Source of the DNA: an uncultured bacterium
Lineage (GTDB): Bacteria > Elusimicrobiota > Elusimicrobia > Elusimicrobiales > Elusimicrobiaceae
Assembly: GCA_949297775.1 (NCBI GenBank)
Contig: CASFTM010000008.1
Location: 1 to 64,000 of the forward strand
DNA: 64,000 nt
Direction of reading: 5' to 3'
Shown: in pieces, positions 8,829 to 18,840 of the stretch
Position numbering within the stretch: position 1 is the stretch's first letter
Layout of the letters: every line of letters begins with the position of its first letter
Position numbers and translations under genes: made by a program
The notes under the pieces: generated by a model
What the model was told of the DNA's origin: nothing
The model's input: only the letters and a program-made list of their open reading frames with translations
Database searches by the model: none

Positions 8829-9911
8829 TTATAGCTTAAGCCATTTGAATTCAAAGAATACTACTACCGAGAAAAACAGCACCGGCCCCCAACCCGCCAG
8901 GAACGGGTTGATGTAGCCGTTTTCGCCAATAGAGGTAAACATAGAAATCAGCCACCAAAAAGTGAAGGCAATGACGAGCGAAGCGATGATGTTTAAAATT
9001 TTACTTTTGCGGCGCATACTAATGGCAAACGGCATGCCCAGCAGACACATAATCAGGGTAACAAACGGCGTAGCCAGTTTGGATTGGAGCATCGTTTGGG
9101 CCGAGTACGAAGCCAAGCCGCTGTGTTTAAAGAAACGGATCCGTTTTGCCAGTTCCCGTATGCTAAGCAGTTTGCCGTCCGTGCGGTCTACGGACATTTC
9201 ATCCGGATTCAGGCTGACTGGAGATTCCGCCGTTTCAAAGCTTTGTTCCGTGGTGTCCATAGGGTCTAAAAAGGTCCGCAGTACCCCGTTGGAAAACAGC
9301 CAGCTTTTGGTTTCGGGGTTCCACACCATTTGGTCGGCTACGATTTGGTGGGCAATATCCCATCCTGCATCATAAGTGTCCAGCGATACGCGGCTCATGG
9401 TGCCGCTTTTTAAATTGACTTCCTTGGCAAAAAGCATTTGGTTGGGGGAAATTTTTAAGATGACATCCTGCTCCGTGCCGGGGTGGAACGAAGCGGAAGG
9501 GTTAATGCGGGTGTTGTAAATTTGGGAGGATTTGGCATTCAGCGGCGGAATAATAAATTCCTGCAGCAGCATCGTCAGCAGCACGACCAGCAAAATACAG
9601 CTGATTACCGGTTTAAACAGTTGGCGCGGGGCAAATCCGCTGGCTACGCAGGCGGTCCATTCGCCGTTGGAAACCATTTCTGATATCACGGATATGGCGC
9701 CCAACAAACACGCCACGGGCATAATGGTAGCCAGCCAGTTGGGGAAAGTGGTTACGGAGTAGGAAAGCAAATCCCACATCGTGGTGGTACCGTTGCCGAG
9801 GTTTTTCATTTTCTCAAAGGTATCCCCCAACACAACCAGCGTGGTAAATACGCCCAGGGCAAAAAAGAACGGGCCCCAAAATTTACGGGCGATATAAAAA
9901 TAAATCCGCAT
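8829..9911 (-). CDS. lptG: LPS export permease, LptG/LptF family (second of the pair)
   Basis: A 360-residue YjgP/YjgQ-family inner-membrane protein with three N-terminal and three C-terminal membrane segments around a periplasmic jellyroll domain. With its partner and LptB it extracts lipopolysaccharide from the inner membrane. Start ATG 9911 overlaps the upstream stop in a TAATG arrangement, so the two are translationally coupled. Assignment as LptG rather than LptF rests only on order and is uncertain. No lptB/lptC is nearby. Confidence 0.82.
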   Translation of the reverse strand: MRIYFYIARKFWGPFFFALGVFTTLVVLGDTFEKMKNLGNGTTTMWDLLSYSVTTFPNWLATIMPVACLLGAISVISEMVSNGEWTACVASGFAPRQLFKPVISCILLVVLLTMLLQEFIIPPLNAKSSQIYNTRINPSASFHPGTEQDVILKISPNQMLFAKEVNLKSGTMSRVSLDTYDAGWDIAHQIVADQMVWNPETKSWLFSNGVLRTFLDPMDTTEQSFETAESPVSLNPDEMSVDRTDGKLLSIRELAKRIRFFKHSGLASYSAQTMLQSKLATPFVTLIMCLLGMPFAISMRRKSKILNIIASLVIAFTFWWLISMFTSIGENGYINPFLAGWGPVLFFSVVVFFEFKWLKL

Positions 9912-11005
9912 TAAATGTTCAGCCTCTTTTTCCACAGGTATTTGGCGGCAAAAATGCCGGCTATAATCGGCAGCCACGGGCCGGGATAGGCAATCCAGCC
10001 GTATTTTTTACCCAGCGACAGGCCCAATGTCATCAACAAATAAAACGTAAAAATGATAATCACGCTGCACAGCATTCCCCAGCCCTTGTTGGTACGCTTA
10101 CCGAGGGAAAACCCTATCGGGCAGCTGACAAACAACAGCACAATCGGGGAGAGCGCCAAAACATTGCGCATACTGATTTCGGTACGGTATTCGTTAATAG
10201 TTTCCGGGTCCAGCGGCAGCTGGCGCATACGGCGAAGCAGCTTGGTGCTGGACATTTCCCCTACGCGCAGGCGGCGGTATTGTTCTTTTAAGAGGGAAAT
10301 ACTCATCACATATTCGTCAAAATTGGCGGCGATAAACGATGTGGGGTCTTTTTCATCCAGGCGCTGCATTTGCCCGTCTTCCAGCTGCAGGCCGATGGCG
10401 GTATCGCTTAAAATCACTTTGCCGCTGGCGGCGTTTACTTTGGTGCTAAGAGCACCTTCGTCGTTGCGTTTAATCAGGTGGATTTGGCGGGCGACGTCGG
10501 TGCTTTTGTCCAAGTTTTCCAAATACAAATCCCATTCGCCCAAGTTTAGAAAAGTTTGCGGTTCCAAATTGACTTTGGTAATTTTGCTGCGGGCTTCGGC
10601 GCGGCGGTCCAGCAGGCGTTTGTAGCTGCGCGGAGTGAACCAGTTGCTCATAATAACCAAAATGACGGATAAGGAAATGGCGCAAATTAAAAGAGGGCGG
10701 ATGATTTCTTTAAACGAAAACCCCGCCGCGCGCAGGGCGATTAGTTCCCCGTGCTCGCTCATATTGGTCAGCGTGAGCAAAATGGCAATTTGAAAGGCCA
10801 TCGGCGCGCTTAGGCAAAATACGTCCGGCAATACGTTTAACAGCGATGACGCCACCCACCCCCAGCTGGTTCCGTACGTCATAGCCATATCCAAAATACG
10901 GATAAACTGGTTCATAAAAATAACGAACGTAAGTATCCCCAGCACACCCAAAAAAAACGTGAGCAGGCTTTTGGCGATGTATTTCGTAAAAATGCCGATA
11001 CGCAT
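9911..11005 (-). CDS. lptF: LPS export permease, LptF/LptG family (first of the pair)
   Basis: A 364-residue paralogue of the following gene with the same six-segment plan. SEHGELIALRAAGFSFKEIIRPL is the characteristic cytoplasmic coupling region that contacts LptB. Start at ATG 11005: a -10-like TAGAAT lies 7 nt upstream on the - strand and there is no Shine-Dalgarno sequence, suggesting a leaderless mRNA. Acts in the LPS transport complex of the inner membrane. Confidence 0.82.
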   Translation of the reverse strand: MRIGIFTKYIAKSLLTFFLGVLGILTFVIFMNQFIRILDMAMTYGTSWGWVASSLLNVLPDVFCLSAPMAFQIAILLTLTNMSEHGELIALRAAGFSFKEIIRPLLICAISLSVILVIMSNWFTPRSYKRLLDRRAEARSKITKVNLEPQTFLNLGEWDLYLENLDKSTDVARQIHLIKRNDEGALSTKVNAASGKVILSDTAIGLQLEDGQMQRLDEKDPTSFIAANFDEYVMSISLLKEQYRRLRVGEMSSTKLLRRMRQLPLDPETINEYRTEISMRNVLALSPIVLLFVSCPIGFSLGKRTNKGWGMLCSVIIIFTFYLLMTLGLSLGKKYGWIAYPGPWLPIIAGIFAAKYLWKKRLNI

Positions 11006-11128
11006 ATATTTTATTCTAACAAAATATAACCCCGCCTGGCTGCAGAATTGCATTTTGGGCCTGGGCCCAAAAACCGATTGGGCCTTTTGACCCTAGCCGT
11101 GTAAGAAGCGGAAAAGTATAATAACAAT

Positions 11129-12313
11129 ATGAAATGGTTCCTGAGCTTACTGTGTATTGCTGTTAGTTTATCTTCTGTTTTCGGACAAAAACTCCCTTCC
11201 AAAAAAATGGCGGAAGAGCTTCTTCGCCCGCAACAGATTGTTCAAAAGGCGTTGCCGGCCCGCTTGGCTGTGCCACCGGCTATCCGGGGTGCGGCTCGTA
11301 CGGCCGGATATGCCGTTCAATCGGTTAAAAAAGAGGGGAATGCAACTTCTTCTGAAGGGCGCCCTGTGTTGTCGCCCGAAGCTTCCGCCTATTTGGAACG
11401 TTTGGCCGCCCGCCGCGCGGCGGATGCCAAAAGCGCGCCCGCTTTAACGCCGCTGCAGGAAGTAGAAAAAAATATCCGCCAATCGTTGGTGGAAATTGTA
11501 GGACGGGCTACCGGCGAGCTGATGGGGAGTGGTTTTGTGGTACGCAGCGGATCGGGGACCTTGTATGCAGTGGCTTCGTATCATGTGGTGGGGCACGCCG
11601 GCAATGCGCTGGCGGTGCGGATGTATGATGCAGAAGGGAACCCTGTTTTTTATCCTTGTGTGCTGGTGTCCGCTTCCGGTTCGTATGGCATTAATGCGCC
11701 GGATGCGGCCATTATTGCCTTGCCGGCCCGTGCGGCCCGCCATGCCAAGCCTCTTAAAGTGGCTTACGGCCTGCCCGCATCAAACGCTACACTGGTGACG
11801 TGGGGCATCCCCTATGCGGTGGGCCGGGCGATACGTGTGGGAGACTTACGGGTACAACACGCGGAAAGTTTTAAAATTGTGATGCATTCCCAACAAGAGG
11901 CAAACCACTTGCGCGGCCTATGCGGAAGCCCCGTATTAAATGAAGAAGGAAAAGTGGCGGGCATTTTCAGTGGGCACAAGGAGGGGGAGGACCTATTTTT
12001 TGCCGTAAATGCCCGCAAAGCGTTGGATTGGCTAATCAGCAATTATGAAAGCAGAAGGCAAGCAACGCTGACTTTTAAATTGCACGGACGGACCATTTTT
12101 ACCCTGCAAGCGGGCGAAACAATCGGCAAGGTGCGCCATTTGGATGAACTGGGCCGCCCTTTAGCAGAGGTGTATGTTCCCCGGTATGACGGAGCCTTTG
12201 ATTTGGAACATTTGGAAGGGTTGTTCCCGGATATAAAACCTGCCGACCGGTTGGATTTTGAAATTGTCAAACACCGGTTTGTTGACAGAGTAATCTCGGT
12301 GGAAATTTTGTAA
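11129..12313 (+). CDS. secreted trypsin-fold peptidase with Cys at the nucleophile site
   Basis: A 394-residue protein with a signal peptide (about 1-19, cut before Gln20). Residues 20-110 are low-complexity Ala/Arg/Lys-rich. A trypsin-like domain runs from about 112 to 292: GSGFVV, catalytic His152 in ASYHVVG, Asp192 in APDAAIIAL, and GLCGSPVL at 263-270 where GxSGGP is expected, so Cys265 replaces Ser. A separate C-terminal domain of about 95 residues follows. TATAAT at 11117-11122 lies 6 nt before ATG with no ribosome site. It may be a cysteine-type chymotrypsin-fold peptidase or an inactive binding protein. Confidence 0.75.
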   Translation: MKWFLSLLCIAVSLSSVFGQKLPSKKMAEELLRPQQIVQKALPARLAVPPAIRGAARTAGYAVQSVKKEGNATSSEGRPVLSPEASAYLERLAARRAADAKSAPALTPLQEVEKNIRQSLVEIVGRATGELMGSGFVVRSGSGTLYAVASYHVVGHAGNALAVRMYDAEGNPVFYPCVLVSASGSYGINAPDAAIIALPARAARHAKPLKVAYGLPASNATLVTWGIPYAVGRAIRVGDLRVQHAESFKIVMHSQQEANHLRGLCGSPVLNEEGKVAGIFSGHKEGEDLFFAVNARKALDWLISNYESRRQATLTFKLHGRTIFTLQAGETIGKVRHLDELGRPLAEVYVPRYDGAFDLEHLEGLFPDIKPADRLDFEIVKHRFVDRVISVEIL

Positions 12314-12363: not shown

Positions 12364-12446
12364 GTGGGGGAAGGCGGCTGTACATTTCAGACGGTCAAGA
12401 AAGGATAAATATTATAGAATGAAATAATGAGGTATTCTTGCCCCCT

Positions 12447-15400
12447 ATGAAAATACTGCGGCTGACTGTCGCCTTGTCCTTGTTTGTGCAATTCGTTGCC
12501 GCTCCTGTGGCCGGCGCCGAATCGTTGCCGTACAGCCTGGTGGACAAGGATCAGTATTCTATTTTTGCGGAAGACCAAGCCGCCAAAGAGGAAGAAGCCC
12601 TTACGTTGCAAGACCCTCCGGACGACGCGCAGCTGCTTAAGTTTACCGACGAATTTTGGCGTCAGGCCGTTACCGCCGTGGACGGCGCCTATAAACTGGA
12701 CAACGAACCGGAGCCCATTCCCGACTTAACTTTATTAAACCCTACGCTTTCACTGCCGCTTTACGGCACCAGTATCGCGTTGACGGGCCGCTATGTGCTG
12801 GGATTTAAAATGGCTGCCCAAAAGTACAAAGAAGATTCCAACAACGATATTGAAGACCGCAACACCAGCACCTTTGAAATGCAGCAGGAAATGCAGCTTA
12901 AAATGCAGGGTAAAATTTTGGAGCGCGTGTTTGTGGATATTGACTACGACGACCAGCGCGAAGAAGAAAAAACCCTCTCCGTAGCCTACCGCGGCAAACC
13001 CGGCGAATTGGTGCAAACAGCGGAATTTGGGGATATTAACTTGTCTCTGCCAGAGACGGAATTTATCGCTTACCAAAAACAGTTGTTCGGTGCCAAAATG
13101 CACTTGCAGCACAAAAACGCCAACTTGTATTTGATTGGTTCGCAGACTAAAGGTTCCAGCAAACAGAAACAGTTTATCGGCAGCAGCGTATCGGAAATTA
13201 TTTCGCTGGCGGACACCTCCTATATCCGCCGTACCTATTACGATTTGACTTTCGGCGGCAATGTCCGCCCGTATATAGACGACCAGGGCACTCTCCGCTA
13301 TCCCGTAGACCGCACGGCTTACGATGAATGGCGCAGTGTGATGGGCAGTATTTCCCCGGGCACGGAAGAAATTTACTACTACAGCAACGATTCTTCTACC
13401 TCTTCCGATTATGTTCCCGTGGATAAAACCGCCACCGACGCCTTAGGCGGAGGTGATTATCCCGCCAAATGGCAACTCCTTACTCGCGGGGTGGACTATA
13501 CCGTGGATTACGCCAGCGGCATTGTTACGTTTAAACGTACGATAACGGCGGAGAGCGTGATTGCCGTGGATTACCGCGATACCCGCGGCAACCAATTAAG
13601 CTCTGTAATGGGTACACCCAATACTATTAAACTAATTAAAACTTCCAACGACCAATCTGTTGTGTCAGGGGCGGGTATTTCCACCGAAACCGCCAATAAA
13701 CTGGAACTGAAAACCTATTACAACATTGGCGCCCAAAAAATCACGCAGGATAACGGCAAAGGCAACTTTATTTTGCAGCTGCAGGACGCCAACGGCCAGG
13801 CTGTTACAAACCCTTATTATAGTTATCCGACGTATATCAACGTGGATTTTAACACCGGTATTTTTGATTTAAGCTACCGCATAAACGATGCCGGCCTTTA
13901 CGCTACCACGCCGACTTCTTCCAAGAACTTGGCGTTTAAAATCCAATATGAGTCCACCGTCAAGACTTATTTTATTGAATCGAATATCGTCATTGAGTCC
14001 GAGACCGTCAAACTAAACGGGCGCACGCTTACCCGCAACAACGATTATTATATTGACTATACTTCCGGCTTTATCACTTTTTACAAAGGGGACGAAATTA
14101 CCGAAAATTCCGTCATAGACATTACTTACGATACCACCTCCGGTTCCAGTTCCAACAATGCCGTTATGGGCGGACGGCTGGACTATAAGCTTTTTGACAA
14201 AATCGTGATGGGCGCTACGATGCTTCAAGAAGGGGGCGAAAAACCCAGCACCGTGCCGCAGGTGGGGGACTACGGTAAAGATTTGTTGGTCTATGGGGCG
14301 GATATCAACGGGAAAGACATTAAATTGGCGGAACCGCTGTCGGTGGATTTCAGCGCAGAAGTTGCCAAAAGCAAAAAAGACCAAAACCTGTTCGGCTATG
14401 CGATGGTGGACAGTATGAACGAAACCACGGAGCAAGTGGGAGGCTCTATGATTTTTAGGGACTGGATTTTTGCTTCCAACCCCAGCGGCAAACCGGCTTT
14501 CTTAAATTCTATCCATTGGGACACGCAGGATTTGCCCGCCTTGGAAATTAACCCGCACGCCATCGCCAATTATAACGATAAACAGCAAGTTCTTATCTTA
14601 AATTACGACTTCACCCTCCCCGCCACCACCATAGACCAATCCACCGGTCAGCCCTTTTTAAACGAGGAAGGACGGGACGAAGTGTCTATCGTTTATCCGC
14701 TTAGTACCAGCGGTATGGATTTATCCAGCAAGACGTCGTTTGAACTTACCATGCTGGGGGAAGCAAACGGCCCGCAGGTTAACTTTACCTTTGGTAACAT
14801 TTCGGAATATTCGGATAATTCTACCGGTATGAACACCCAATGCGGCACCAATGTTCCCAAAACGGAAGATATTTATTGCCGCAATACCTTGGCCCCGAAC
14901 GAAGACATCGGCTGGCTGTTTACCAACCCGGACGGAACTGAGGAGCGGTACAATCCGTTTGTAAATAACGTTTACAACCCTGAATCCCAGCCCAACGGAC
15001 GCATTGATACGCAGGACTTGAACGGGAACGGCGTGTACGATGCGGAAAGCGTCCCGCTGCAGGGCAATTTCGGCTTCGCCGGGGCCGCCATTGAGGGGAT
15101 GAACAACAATACCGCTTCCAATACTGCGTGGACTACTTATACGATGCCGCTTTTGCTCTCCGACGCTGAAAAAGACCAATGGACGGCGGTGCGCCACTTG
15201 CGTATTACCGTCAAACTGACGGATGAAATGAAACGGGCAGGTAAACTCAAAGGGCAAATTAAAATTGCCAATGTGTCTTTGTCCGGCACGGCGTGGAACC
15301 CGCAGGACGACACGGACCCGGATGTGTTTTCCGTCGCGGGTATTAACAATGTGGACAGCACTACCTACGAACCAATTTTTGCCGATACCACCGGCGATGG

Positions 15401-18104
15401 ACTGACCGTATTTAACTATTTGTATGGTTCCATTGCCAATTATAAACAGTCCACCGGTTCCACCAACGCACTGGACCAGGCGCTGAATGTAAAGTTTGAC
15501 ACCTCTTCCCTGCCGTCCGTGCCGGATAATACGGCGGATACCAATCCCGCCGGAGAACGCTACGCCAACCGCAACTTCAGCACGATGGATTTTACCCAGC
15601 ACCGCGAATTCCGTTTCTTGCTGCACGGCGCTATGGAACAGGGCGGCGCGCGCCCGCTGGACCAGGCCGGTACGGAGTTCTTTTTAAAAGTAGGTACGGA
15701 TACCAACTACGATAAAGTAATCGTACCGACGGACTTCCGCGGTTGGCGTTTGATTTCGCTTAAAATGGTGGACTCCAACGGAGACGGCGTAGCCGACACC
15801 TTTCAAAACGCTTCCGATCCTTCTTATAACGTTCGGGTGGTAAACCACCGTGCGGTAGGCGGGATTTTAAATTTCAGCGAAATCAGTTTAATTTTAGCCG
15901 GCGTGCAGAAAGAGAGCGTGTACGAATACACGTTTACGCAAGAGGACTCCAGCCAAACGTGGTATGCCCGCGGCCTTTTGCAGCCCGGCTTGGCTTTGTA
16001 CAGCGATACGAATTGTACTATTTCCGCCGGGCGGGTGGAAACGGCTTCCGCACTGCCAGACGGCAGTTATCAGGTGGTGCTGGAGGACGGAAAAACGTAT
16101 ACCGCCGTGTTGGGGCCGGTTACCGCAAGTACGGGCAGCACGGGGGAAGTGTGGCTGAATGTCATTCACTTGGCGGAGGCCATCACGTTGGAGGGCACGG
16201 CCTACAAAGGGGATGTGGTGGTTAAATTGGATGGCTGGGGCAGTGCCGGAGCAAAGTATAAATATCAAGACAGCAATTTTGAAACTCCGCTTGCCGTAGC
16301 CAAAAACCAGGAAGTGACGGAAGAAGAATATTTCCTGAAAGTGGACAAAATTAAGGAATTTCCGATGGAAGCAAACTTGACGCGTTCTTCCACCGTAACG
16401 CCTTTGGTTACGGATACCACCGATTATAACACCATCAGCCTGTTGGATAAGGGCCAGGTGGACCGGCAGACGGCGGTTATCCGCGGGGATTTTAAAAAAG
16501 ACAATTTGCCCCAAATCGGGTTGGAATATACCACTGATACCGTGGAATATGACGCCATGCAGCGCAAAGACGATTCCCGTACCTACGGCGCCACCTTGAC
16601 GCACTCCGCCGGCGCGTTTAAAAACATTTCCGCCGGATATCACATTACCGATTCGTCCATTGACTACGACCGCGAAAAACATCTAGAGTCTTCCAACTAT
16701 TACAATACGGACGAAAACACCCAAAAAATGAATATGAAGGTAACCTACCAGCCGACAAACAATTTTAACTTTACGCCCAGTTATAATTTAACGAAAAGCA
16801 AAGAGGACCGCACCACCTATCAGCAAACGGATACGCAAAACATCAGCTACCCCAAAGCCATGACGCAGAGCACCGGTTTTAACAGTACCTGGAAAATCGC
16901 CAAATGGCTGGCTCCGTCGGTCAGCTACAATATTAGCACGGTGGAAAGCAATAACCTGACGGCCAAAACGCTTTCCGCTTCCGGGCAGCAGGTTAATGTC
17001 GGCGTGGGCGAAGTGAAAACGGTCAACCGTAACGCGGACGGAGGTATTTCTCTTACGCTGAACGGAAACGAAATTTTACCCAAAAGCAAATTATTTAATA
17101 CTTTTGTAATTTCTTCCAGCTACCGCATTCAGGATGCGGATTCTTGGTATGATGTGGACAGCGATTTTGATTCCCGCAAAGAATTGTGGATTCGCAGTTC
17201 GCTCAAAGACGTGGGAGAATACGGCTACCGCAAAAGTTTAATTTTGCGCGATACTTTTACGTCTACCCAGCGGTGGAGTCCGTTCTCGCAATACAATTTG
17301 GGCGGAGCCGCCGCGCCGCTTAAAACGGTTTCTATCATTAATAACTTTACCAAAACCTTGCAGACCAACGATGAAACCGGCACTTCGTACGATTCCACCA
17401 GCCTGACCTTGCCGGATATGACGTTTTCCATTTCCGATTTGGAAAAATTCTTTTACGGCGGCAAATGGTTCAGCTCCTCCAACTTAAAACTGCGCTACAG
17501 TATGGTGGAACAAACCACCACCAACAGCGATGAACAATACACCACCCAATACGGCGGAGATTTGCGCTTTATGCTGTTTAATTATTTTGACACGGTGCTT
17601 AACTATACGCGCAAAGTGTCCGACAAAACGGACCTGCGCGCCGGCACCAGCTTGGAGCGCGTGGAAGACAACGATGTTTCCGCGCAGACTTCTTTTTACA
17701 TCGGTTCTATGCGCGTAACGCCCAAACTGCTCTATACGTCACACGATAAATGGCTGGTGGCGGGGCAAATCAGCGAAAGCAGTACCGAAATGACGCCCAG
17801 CCTGAACCTGCGGTGGGACTTCAATATGCCGCGCGGTTTTAAACTGCCGTTTATTAACAAAATGTACAACGCCACCAACCGCGTGATTTGGAATACTACT
17901 TTTTCATTTACGGATAAAAAATCCCCGGTGGAAGTAACGGAGAACTACCAAAAATACGATTTCAGCACTTCACTGGATTACGAACTTTCGCAGAACCTGC
18001 GTTTTACGCTGGGCGGCGGGCTGACGGTATTGCAGCACGCATACGTCAAGACGGAAGACTATGTGGCCTATAACGTGGCCGCCAACGTGACGGTACAATT
18101 CTGA
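12447..18104 (+). CDS. giant SprA-like outer-membrane protein
   Basis: An 1885-residue exported protein with a signal peptide (MKILRLTVALSLFVQFVAAPVAGA). About residues 80-240 carry the SprA-type signature: LPLYGTSIALTGRYVLGFK, a MQQEMQLKMQGKILERVFVD stretch, then GDINLSLPETEF..YQKQLFGAK. Repeated GVDYTVDYASGIVTF modules follow, and the C-terminal ~500 residues are alternating aromatic beta-strands ending in Phe, as in large barrels. SprA forms the type IX secretion translocon in Bacteroidota, usually ~2,300-2,500 residues, so this is shorter. ATG 12447 is chosen because the signal peptide starts there. No other type IX genes are visible. comF follows 4 nt after the stop. Confidence 0.72.
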   Translation: MKILRLTVALSLFVQFVAAPVAGAESLPYSLVDKDQYSIFAEDQAAKEEEALTLQDPPDDAQLLKFTDEFWRQAVTAVDGAYKLDNEPEPIPDLTLLNPTLSLPLYGTSIALTGRYVLGFKMAAQKYKEDSNNDIEDRNTSTFEMQQEMQLKMQGKILERVFVDIDYDDQREEEKTLSVAYRGKPGELVQTAEFGDINLSLPETEFIAYQKQLFGAKMHLQHKNANLYLIGSQTKGSSKQKQFIGSSVSEIISLADTSYIRRTYYDLTFGGNVRPYIDDQGTLRYPVDRTAYDEWRSVMGSISPGTEEIYYYSNDSSTSSDYVPVDKTATDALGGGDYPAKWQLLTRGVDYTVDYASGIVTFKRTITAESVIAVDYRDTRGNQLSSVMGTPNTIKLIKTSNDQSVVSGAGISTETANKLELKTYYNIGAQKITQDNGKGNFILQLQDANGQAVTNPYYSYPTYINVDFNTGIFDLSYRINDAGLYATTPTSSKNLAFKIQYESTVKTYFIESNIVIESETVKLNGRTLTRNNDYYIDYTSGFITFYKGDEITENSVIDITYDTTSGSSSNNAVMGGRLDYKLFDKIVMGATMLQEGGEKPSTVPQVGDYGKDLLVYGADINGKDIKLAEPLSVDFSAEVAKSKKDQNLFGYAMVDSMNETTEQVGGSMIFRDWIFASNPSGKPAFLNSIHWDTQDLPALEINPHAIANYNDKQQVLILNYDFTLPATTIDQSTGQPFLNEEGRDEVSIVYPLSTSGMDLSSKTSFELTMLGEANGPQVNFTFGNISEYSDNSTGMNTQCGTNVPKTEDIYCRNTLAPNEDIGWLFTNPDGTEERYNPFVNNVYNPESQPNGRIDTQDLNGNGVYDAESVPLQGNFGFAGAAIEGMNNNTASNTAWTTYTMPLLLSDAEKDQWTAVRHLRITVKLTDEMKRAGKLKGQIKIANVSLSGTAWNPQDDTDPDVFSVAGINNVDSTTYEPIFADTTGDGLTVFNYLYGSIANYKQSTGSTNALDQALNVKFDTSSLPSVPDNTADTNPAGERYANRNFSTMDFTQHREFRFLLHGAMEQGGARPLDQAGTEFFLKVGTDTNYDKVIVPTDFRGWRLISLKMVDSNGDGVADTFQNASDPSYNVRVVNHRAVGGILNFSEISLILAGVQKESVYEYTFTQEDSSQTWYARGLLQPGLALYSDTNCTISAGRVETASALPDGSYQVVLEDGKTYTAVLGPVTASTGSTGEVWLNVIHLAEAITLEGTAYKGDVVVKLDGWGSAGAKYKYQDSNFETPLAVAKNQEVTEEEYFLKVDKIKEFPMEANLTRSSTVTPLVTDTTDYNTISLLDKGQVDRQTAVIRGDFKKDNLPQIGLEYTTDTVEYDAMQRKDDSRTYGATLTHSAGAFKNISAGYHITDSSIDYDREKHLESSNYYNTDENTQKMNMKVTYQPTNNFNFTPSYNLTKSKEDRTTYQQTDTQNISYPKAMTQSTGFNSTWKIAKWLAPSVSYNISTVESNNLTAKTLSASGQQVNVGVGEVKTVNRNADGGISLTLNGNEILPKSKLFNTFVISSSYRIQDADSWYDVDSDFDSRKELWIRSSLKDVGEYGYRKSLILRDTFTSTQRWSPFSQYNLGGAAAPLKTVSIINNFTKTLQTNDETGTSYDSTSLTLPDMTFSISDLEKFFYGGKWFSSSNLKLRYSMVEQTTTNSDEQYTTQYGGDLRFMLFNYFDTVLNYTRKVSDKTDLRAGTSLERVEDNDVSAQTSFYIGSMRVTPKLLYTSHDKWLVAGQISESSTEMTPSLNLRWDFNMPRGFKLPFINKMYNATNRVIWNTTFSFTDKKSPVEVTENYQKYDFSTSLDYELSQNLRFTLGGGLTVLQHAYVKTEDYVAYNVAANVTVQF

Positions 18105-18108
18105 TCCT

Positions 18109-18840
18109 ATGCAAAACACCTGCCGCCAGTTGCTTAAACTTTTCTTGCATTTTTGGTTTCCGCGCACTTGTTTCGCCTGCGGGCGGGATTTGGCGTGGCG
18201 AACGGAAGATCCTCTTTGCCCGGGTTGCGCCGGCTCCTTAACACCGCCCGGCCCGCTTATTTGCCAGCGGTGCGGGGCCGCGCTTAAAAGCGGCGGGGCG
18301 CATTGTTATGCCTGCCGCGGCGGCAAAGCCCGCCAATACAAGTGCCGGATGATTCGGGCTTCGTTTGTGTTTAACCCTTCTTCGCGCGCGTTGGTACACG
18401 CGCTAAAATACGCCAATGCCGACTATTTGGCCCGGTATATGGGGCGGCTGATGGGAAGAGAATTTGCCCAATACCCGGAGCTGTCGGAAGCGGAAGTGTT
18501 GGTTCCGGTACCGCTGTTTCCCAAACGGTGCCGCCGGCGCGGGTATAACCAAAGCGAACTGCTGGCGCGTGCCCTGGCGGAGACAATCGGCCTGCCGGTT
18601 AACACCGCCGCGCTGGCGCGCGTGCGCGATACCGTCAGCCAAACCACCTTGGGGCGTGCAGGGAGGCTGGCCAATATGTCCGGCGCGTTTTTATGCACGC
18701 GCCCGGCTGAACTAAAGGGGAAAGTGGTTTTGCTGGTGGACGATGTAGCCACTACCGGCGCTACGCTGGAAGGCTGTGCACAGGCCCTGCGTGCGGCGGG
18801 AGCCAAAAAAGTGTACGCGTACACTTTCGCACGGGAATAG
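18109..18840 (+). CDS. comF: ComF family phosphoribosyltransferase-like protein
   Basis: A 243-residue protein. The N-terminal zinc-binding region has four Cys pairs (CFAC at 21-24, then LCPGC, CQRC and CYAC). The C-terminal PRTase domain contains VLLVDDVATTGATL, the PRPP loop, and the family block RRRGYNQSELLA. ComF supports DNA uptake in competent bacteria; type IV pili also feature in uptake, but the link here is only suggestive. It starts 4 nt after the SprA-like gene and is probably co-transcribed. Confidence 0.88.
   Translation: MQNTCRQLLKLFLHFWFPRTCFACGRDLAWRTEDPLCPGCAGSLTPPGPLICQRCGAALKSGGAHCYACRGGKARQYKCRMIRASFVFNPSSRALVHALKYANADYLARYMGRLMGREFAQYPELSEAEVLVPVPLFPKRCRRRGYNQSELLARALAETIGLPVNTAALARVRDTVSQTTLGRAGRLANMSGAFLCTRPAELKGKVVLLVDDVATTGATLEGCAQALRAAGAKKVYAYTFARE

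Follow-up and report, generated by a model that had tools for sequence, protein, structure and literature searches.

An SprA-like giant outer-membrane protein of Elusimicrobiota, candidate translocon for type IX-like export of proteins

This study focused on a giant predicted outer-membrane protein encoded in a 64,000-nucleotide stretch of DNA (the window; contig CASFTM010000008.1 of assembly GCA_949297775.1, positions 1 to 64,000) from an uncultured gut bacterium of the phylum Elusimicrobiota, outside Bacteroidota. The gene lies at positions 12447 to 18104 of the forward strand, and by its sequence the 1885-residue product is a homologue of SprA (also called Sov), the translocon of the type IX secretion system (T9SS) of Bacteroidota. 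Taken with the partner genes described below, the sequence data suggest, at a probability of roughly 0.7, that Elusimicrobiota export proteins by a type IX-like route and that this protein is its outer-membrane translocon. The gene is phylum-wide and no peculiarity of the window's genome.

Results

The relationship to SprA was recovered with family profiles. TIGR04189, the NCBIfam model for the T9SS translocon Sov/SprA, matched the window protein in three stretches with E=9.5e-32 and 109.3 bits, which is under the curated equivalog cut-off of 200 bits, so that the protein is regarded as a homologue and is not filed as an equivalog. A profile built from all 21 rows of an alignment (A1) of the window protein and 20 orthologues from relatives was compared with all PDB sequences and found Flavobacterium johnsoniae SprA at E=1.5e-38, the match, spread over most of SprA, consisting of three significant, colinear stretches (SprA residues 151-267, 673-779, and 1158-1604); the C-terminal third of SprA, past residue 1604, gave no significant sequence match to this profile. 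Only the family profile found SprA, as phmmer with the window protein as a single sequence did not find it in the PDB. A Pfam scan left SprA_N unmatched in the window protein and returned nothing of note otherwise, and the absence of an SprA_N match from the organism's own genome is uninformative, since no control matched either. The SprA/Sov family is marked by a 36-strand barrel with a lateral opening; a model of residues 690-1885 of the window protein showed a run of long strands at low confidence (mean predicted local distance difference test score, pLDDT, 59.5; predicted template modelling score, pTM, 0.37). When this partial model was searched with Foldseek, the best four matches were SprA chains (E from 4e-18 to 7e-14), followed by LptD at E=3.5e-4, a result that is only supporting because SprA rows were present in the folding alignment. 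An earlier note, made from the letters of the window, had likened the protein to SprA and named a profile search as the way to check it; the likeness proved to be significant and far above chance.

The open reading frame begins at 12438 (TTG) or 12447 (ATG) and ends at 18104, giving 1885 residues from the ATG. A probable Sec signal peptide, judged by eye from the sequence, occupies residues 1-24 (12447-12518), and the N-terminal block most like SprA, which is the best stretch of the TIGR04189 match, spans residues 108-259 (12768-13223). This block holds the motif SLPETEF..YQKQLFGAK pointed out in the earlier note, with SLPETEF and KQLFGAK placed at residues 200 and 211, respectively. The modules that the note had seen as repeated were also real: DYTVDYASGIVTF (residue 350), in a first module of residues 345-389 (13479-13613), and DYYIDYTSGFITF (residue 533), in a second of residues 528-575 (14028-14171), are identical at 22/48 positions when neighbouring residues are included. 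Further along, the GEVW.N block common to Bacteroidota SprA proteins was recognised from conserved alignment columns at about residues 1233-1252 (16143-16202), within the stretch aligned to SprA 1158-1604. The C-terminal region (16713-18101) comprises long predicted strands, according to the low-confidence model, and closes on an invariant phenylalanine, which was the last residue in 21/21 orthologues (the window protein and 20 others), as would fit an outer-membrane barrel. A terminal phenylalanine is common among outer-membrane barrels.

TIGR04189 matched 105/119 genomes of the phylum, the 14 misses all falling within one family, f9. In a scan of named genomes with a sequence pattern, at least 120 stretches were collected, of which at least 80 matched the A1 profile; the named Elusimicrobiota loci L136 (Elusimicrobium sp.) and L129 (Candidatus Ruminimicrobiellum) scored 1870 and 1600 bits, and the other named loci among the matches listed reached no more than 274 bits. 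Over two long stretches, the window protein and L136 share about 43% identity; identity to L129 is 27-29%. Roughly 75 of its residues (about 1158-1231, nucleotides 15918-16139) did not align to L136, its closest named relative. In an SprA tree of 44 rows, which included Ignavibacteriales, KSB1 and Gemmatimonadota (L144 was left out), the 23 Elusimicrobiota rows formed one side of a single branch with support of 100/99, confirming the placement of the host outside Bacteroidota that the earlier note had proposed, with the caveat that the Elusimicrobiota clade and the Gemmatimonadota rows meet along long branches. L136 was nested within the window's family (f1) and L129 within f9, which makes f1 Elusimicrobiaceae-like and f9 Endomicrobiaceae-like. 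Since the Elusimicrobiota rows form one clade, the gene looks to have been vertically inherited and not recently acquired from Bacteroidota. A search of plasmids gave no match.

Two partner classes of Bacteroidota SprA, the outer-membrane carrier PorV and the C-terminal sorting domain (CTD) of cargo proteins, were widespread in the phylum. The PorV family model (NF033709) matched 112/119 genomes, 74 of them over cut-off, and many genomes outside f1 had at least ten matches each. The model of the Type A sorting domain of T9SS (TIGR04183) matched 78/119, 76 over cut-off. Very large repertoires of both occurred in G006, G012, G041 and other non-f1 genomes, with first-look candidates in one genome numbering up to 60 for PorV and 94 for CTD, and the CTD proteins there include open frames of several thousand residues. 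Automatic NCBI labels on Elusimicrobiota proteins presumably may already read PorV/PorQ or sorting domain in some instances. The arrangement of the two classes was analysed with profiles built from Elusimicrobiota matches, comparing the best-ranked CTD gene of each of 40 genomes with 20 control regions at hand-picked positions in 16 genomes. The CTD was at the extreme C-terminus in 40/40 of the sampled cargo genes, and a PorV-family gene lay nearby on the same strand in 23/40 (21 downstream and 2 upstream) compared to 2/20 of the controls, both of which themselves adjoin CTD-like genes. The value of 23/40 is a lower bound, as contig ends truncated several of the stretches fetched around the CTD genes.

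Within the window, PorV and sorting-domain profiles found no match, as expected from the earlier note, which had seen no por or gld gene nearby. Elsewhere in the same genome, however, both partner classes were present, which, with the significant profile match, goes against what the earlier note had named as refuting its reading. NF033709 matched three proteins, of which two were of TraF_2 and FadL type, and the third, on contig C7, was PorV-like, with a score (87.4 bits) just under the cut-off of 90. Its gene directly follows that of a protein of about 1570 residues, some 35 bases separating the two if the longest possible start is used. By eye, this larger protein appears to carry a signal peptide; it contains an internal FlgD-Ig domain, and its C-terminal domain was matched by the PorZ tail (E=4e-8) and, in two pieces with an insertion between them, by the CTD profile built from Elusimicrobiota. 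When a CTD alignment that included the C7 row was searched against 41 genomes of the genus, 33 matched, 29 of these at E<=5e-17, and in 30/30 fetched loci of the genus a PorV-family gene stood beside the CTD gene; it seems, therefore, that the genus keeps one clear cargo-carrier pair. In the window's genome this pair (L098:2-6750) sits immediately upstream of what appears, by eye, to be a Tad/Flp pilus operon.

Family f9 (38 genomes) provided a case of linked loss. Among its genomes with an SprA match, 21 had a CTD and 3 had none, compared to 2 and 12 among those lacking the match (Fisher p=1.2e-5), and all 7 genomes devoid of PorV also lacked an SprA match (p=2.7e-4), although these p-values overstate the evidence, the genomes being related. 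A possible role as a substitute for LptD had been considered for the window protein, as PF04453 at first matched only 7/119 genomes, and was rejected when a phylum-specific profile revealed a separate LptD-like protein in 118/119, including 13/14 of those without an SprA match. This retention means that the loss of SprA in f9 was not a loss of the lipopolysaccharide (LPS) pathway of the outer membrane.

Gene neighbourhoods were compared across 21 loci, 20 of them fetched in addition to the window. Upstream and on the opposite strand lie two LPS export permease genes of the LptF/LptG family, at 8829-9977 (PF03739, E=8.6e-70), a phylum-wide neighbour, and at 9911-11053 (PF03739, E=2e-68). Genes of this family were near the sprA-like gene in 19/21 loci, divergent in 18 and on the same strand in L032, and were not found at L039 and L041. 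The gene immediately downstream (18109-18840, forward strand; PF00156, PF18912) specifies a ComF-type phosphoribosyltransferase, which follows the sprA-like gene in 18/21 loci and probably stands outside the export system. Conserved downstream families F6, F7 and F10 had been candidates for pilus genes and were rejected as such, being phosphoglycerate kinase, glyceraldehyde-3-phosphate dehydrogenase and SecG. A barrel related to PorV (F3) was present in 10/21 loci, and an M6 peptidase (F4), often accompanied by a PorV-like barrel, in 9/21. HExxH is present in 10/10 F4 proteins, in one case as HELTH in a frame that the end of the locus truncates, and 9/10 close on a CTD-like tail, one of these tails being weak. 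Such proteins may be cargo or processing enzymes, and could stand in for PorU. Loci in which F4 lies near lptFG and the sprA-like gene include L036, L043, L044, L045, L046, L049 and L050; the window's own locus has no F4 gene. A secreted-looking, trypsin-like (Trypsin_2) protein is encoded between lptF and the sprA-like gene of the window (11129-12313, forward strand), and was set aside because no counterpart family was present at the other 20 loci, same-genus L031 included.

Discussion

The window protein resembles Bacteroidota SprA/Sov (PDB 6H3I, 8GL6, 8GL8) in its colinear homology, with three significant stretches between SprA residues 151 and 1604, and in having an apparent signal peptide, a C-terminal half of long strands, and a terminal phenylalanine. 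It differs in being about 500 residues shorter (1885 compared to 2403) and in the position of its gene beside lptF/lptG. At the level of the system, the PorV and CTD partner classes are present in the window's genome, as in Bacteroidota, whereas GldM, GldN and full-length PorU were not found in Elusimicrobiota with the profiles used. The type IX-like system that the earlier note had raised holds up as regards an SprA homologue, a PorV family, and CTDs. By these profiles it is incomplete, and the three components not found are the reason for not classing it as a full T9SS.

How such a route might operate can be sketched from the solved Bacteroidota system. In F. johnsoniae, according to the available excerpts of one study, PorV docks at the lateral opening of SprA and its loops are bound, within the pore, by the cargo CTD; pulling the PorV-cargo pair out takes energy supplied by the motor (PMC10994853). 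Excerpts of a second describe Type A cargo proteins as sharing one PorV, and Type B cargo as relying on PorP/SprF shuttles of their own, whose genes often come next downstream and which also set the final location (PMC12618676). By analogy, cargo of Elusimicrobiota would reach the periplasm by Sec; its CTD would then enter the SprA-like pore, where a carrier of the PorV family, positioned at the lateral opening, would be bound through its loops, and cargo and carrier would exit together through that opening. Given the gene pairing and the absence of a PorU-type sortase among the matches, each PorV-family protein may serve one cargo and probably stays bound to it as a surface anchor, with release of the pair proceeding without a recognisable GldM motor arm. 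The order of a cargo gene followed by its own outer-membrane shuttle gene is like that of the Type B systems as these are described in the excerpts (PMC12618676), but in Elusimicrobiota a Type A-like tail (TIGR04183) is combined with a shuttle of the PorV family.

Several results weigh against a type IX-like function. TIGR04189 was over cut-off in 0/119 genomes of the phylum; across the window's genus (24 genomes) TIGR04183 gave no CTD match, and the CTD of the window's genome was visible only by way of the PorZ model and the profiles built from Elusimicrobiota. No PorV gene was present in the fetched stretch for 17/40 CTD genes, and two genomes, G048 and G117, carry a CTD and PorV without an SprA match, both being fragmented assemblies (110 and 280 contigs). 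The GldM motor arm (TIGR03517) was matched in 0/119 genomes of the phylum compared to 6/6 Bacteroidota controls, by a profile whose sensitivity outside Bacteroidota is unproven, and the GldN ring protein (TIGR03523) in 0/18 Elusimicrobiota compared to 6/6 controls, so the search for these two components proposed in the earlier note came back empty and, as far as these profiles show, the known energy source is missing. The PorU sortase (NF033707) was over cut-off at full length in 0/18 Elusimicrobiota, and was over cut-off in the 6 Bacteroidota controls and in KSB1; the Elusimicrobiota matches among the rows listed cover the C-terminal part only, with one weak exception (G006:C55).

The missing motor can be understood in two ways. 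As a tentative proposal, for which the odds are somewhat below even, Elusimicrobiota would possess a motorless form of type IX secretion, consisting of the SprA-like pore and a private, single-use PorV-family carrier and anchor for each cargo, possibly close to the ancestral state, with GldKLMN and PorU being later additions in Bacteroidota. The other way, which we consider slightly less likely, is that the system is a classical and complete T9SS whose motor/ring proteins (GldK/L/M/N, SprE, PorU) have diverged beyond the reach of the profiles. SprA homologues also occur in KSB1 (genome of L122), along with a full PorU, and in Longimicrobiales (genome of L107), yet neither genome gave a match to the GldM or GldN profile, so that either these profiles fail outside Bacteroidota or those lineages have no motor as well; the question of the missing motor may then extend beyond Elusimicrobiota. 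Blind profiles would favour divergence, but the same models were strong in every Bacteroidota control and silent in all Elusimicrobiota genomes searched (119 for GldM, 18 for GldN), and the comparable model TIGR04189 does detect SprA in most genomes of the phylum.

Other explanations remove the protein, or its presumed partners, from type IX export altogether. The regular proximity of lptF/lptG-family genes, and LptD as the next-best fold match after SprA, could indicate that the barrel exports LPS or lipid with these neighbours instead of protein, the earlier note having likewise allowed for a separate export role. This appears quite improbable, the least probable of the explanations weighed here, because nearly all of the genomes have a separate LptD-like protein, f9 loses SprA together with CTD and PorV while LptD stays, and both sequence and fold are far closer to SprA. 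Hardly more probable is that the CTD-like and PorV-like genes are ordinary immunoglobulin-fold tails and FadL-type porins with no connection to the SprA-like protein. FlgD Ig-like domains do score on the same proteins, and 2/3 of the PorV matches in the window's genome are other FadL-superfamily or TraF_2-type proteins, but such chance resemblance fits poorly with a CTD that is invariably terminal, a PorV pairing well above control that is complete across the genus loci, and the joint loss in f9.

The known distribution of T9SS is narrower than would follow from these data. The accessible part of a 2016 survey gives T9SS in Bacteroidetes only (PMC4793230), and that of a 2024 paper reports T9SS as possible in other phyla of the Fibrobacterota-Chlorobiota-Bacteroidota (FCB) group, among them Fibrobacterota, Ignavibacteriota, Gemmatimonadetes and Cloacimonadota, and its genes as absent outside the FCB phyla (PMC11285876). 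Elusimicrobiota are like those additional phyla in having an SprA-type protein outside Bacteroidota, and unlike them in not appearing in the list as excerpted (PMC11285876). In the literature, to the extent of its accessible text, no description of a T9SS in Elusimicrobiota was found, Elusimicrobia appearing in other contexts or in reference lists.

A phylum-wide set of SprA, PorV and CTD in Elusimicrobiota widens the range of type IX-type systems, and makes the phylum a natural test of which T9SS parts form the core. If export works there without GldLM, then motor-driven release of the carrier, as described in the excerpts for F. johnsoniae (cf. PMC10994853), would not be universal. The set also provides a concrete hypothesis for how the cell surface may be built in Elusimicrobiota.
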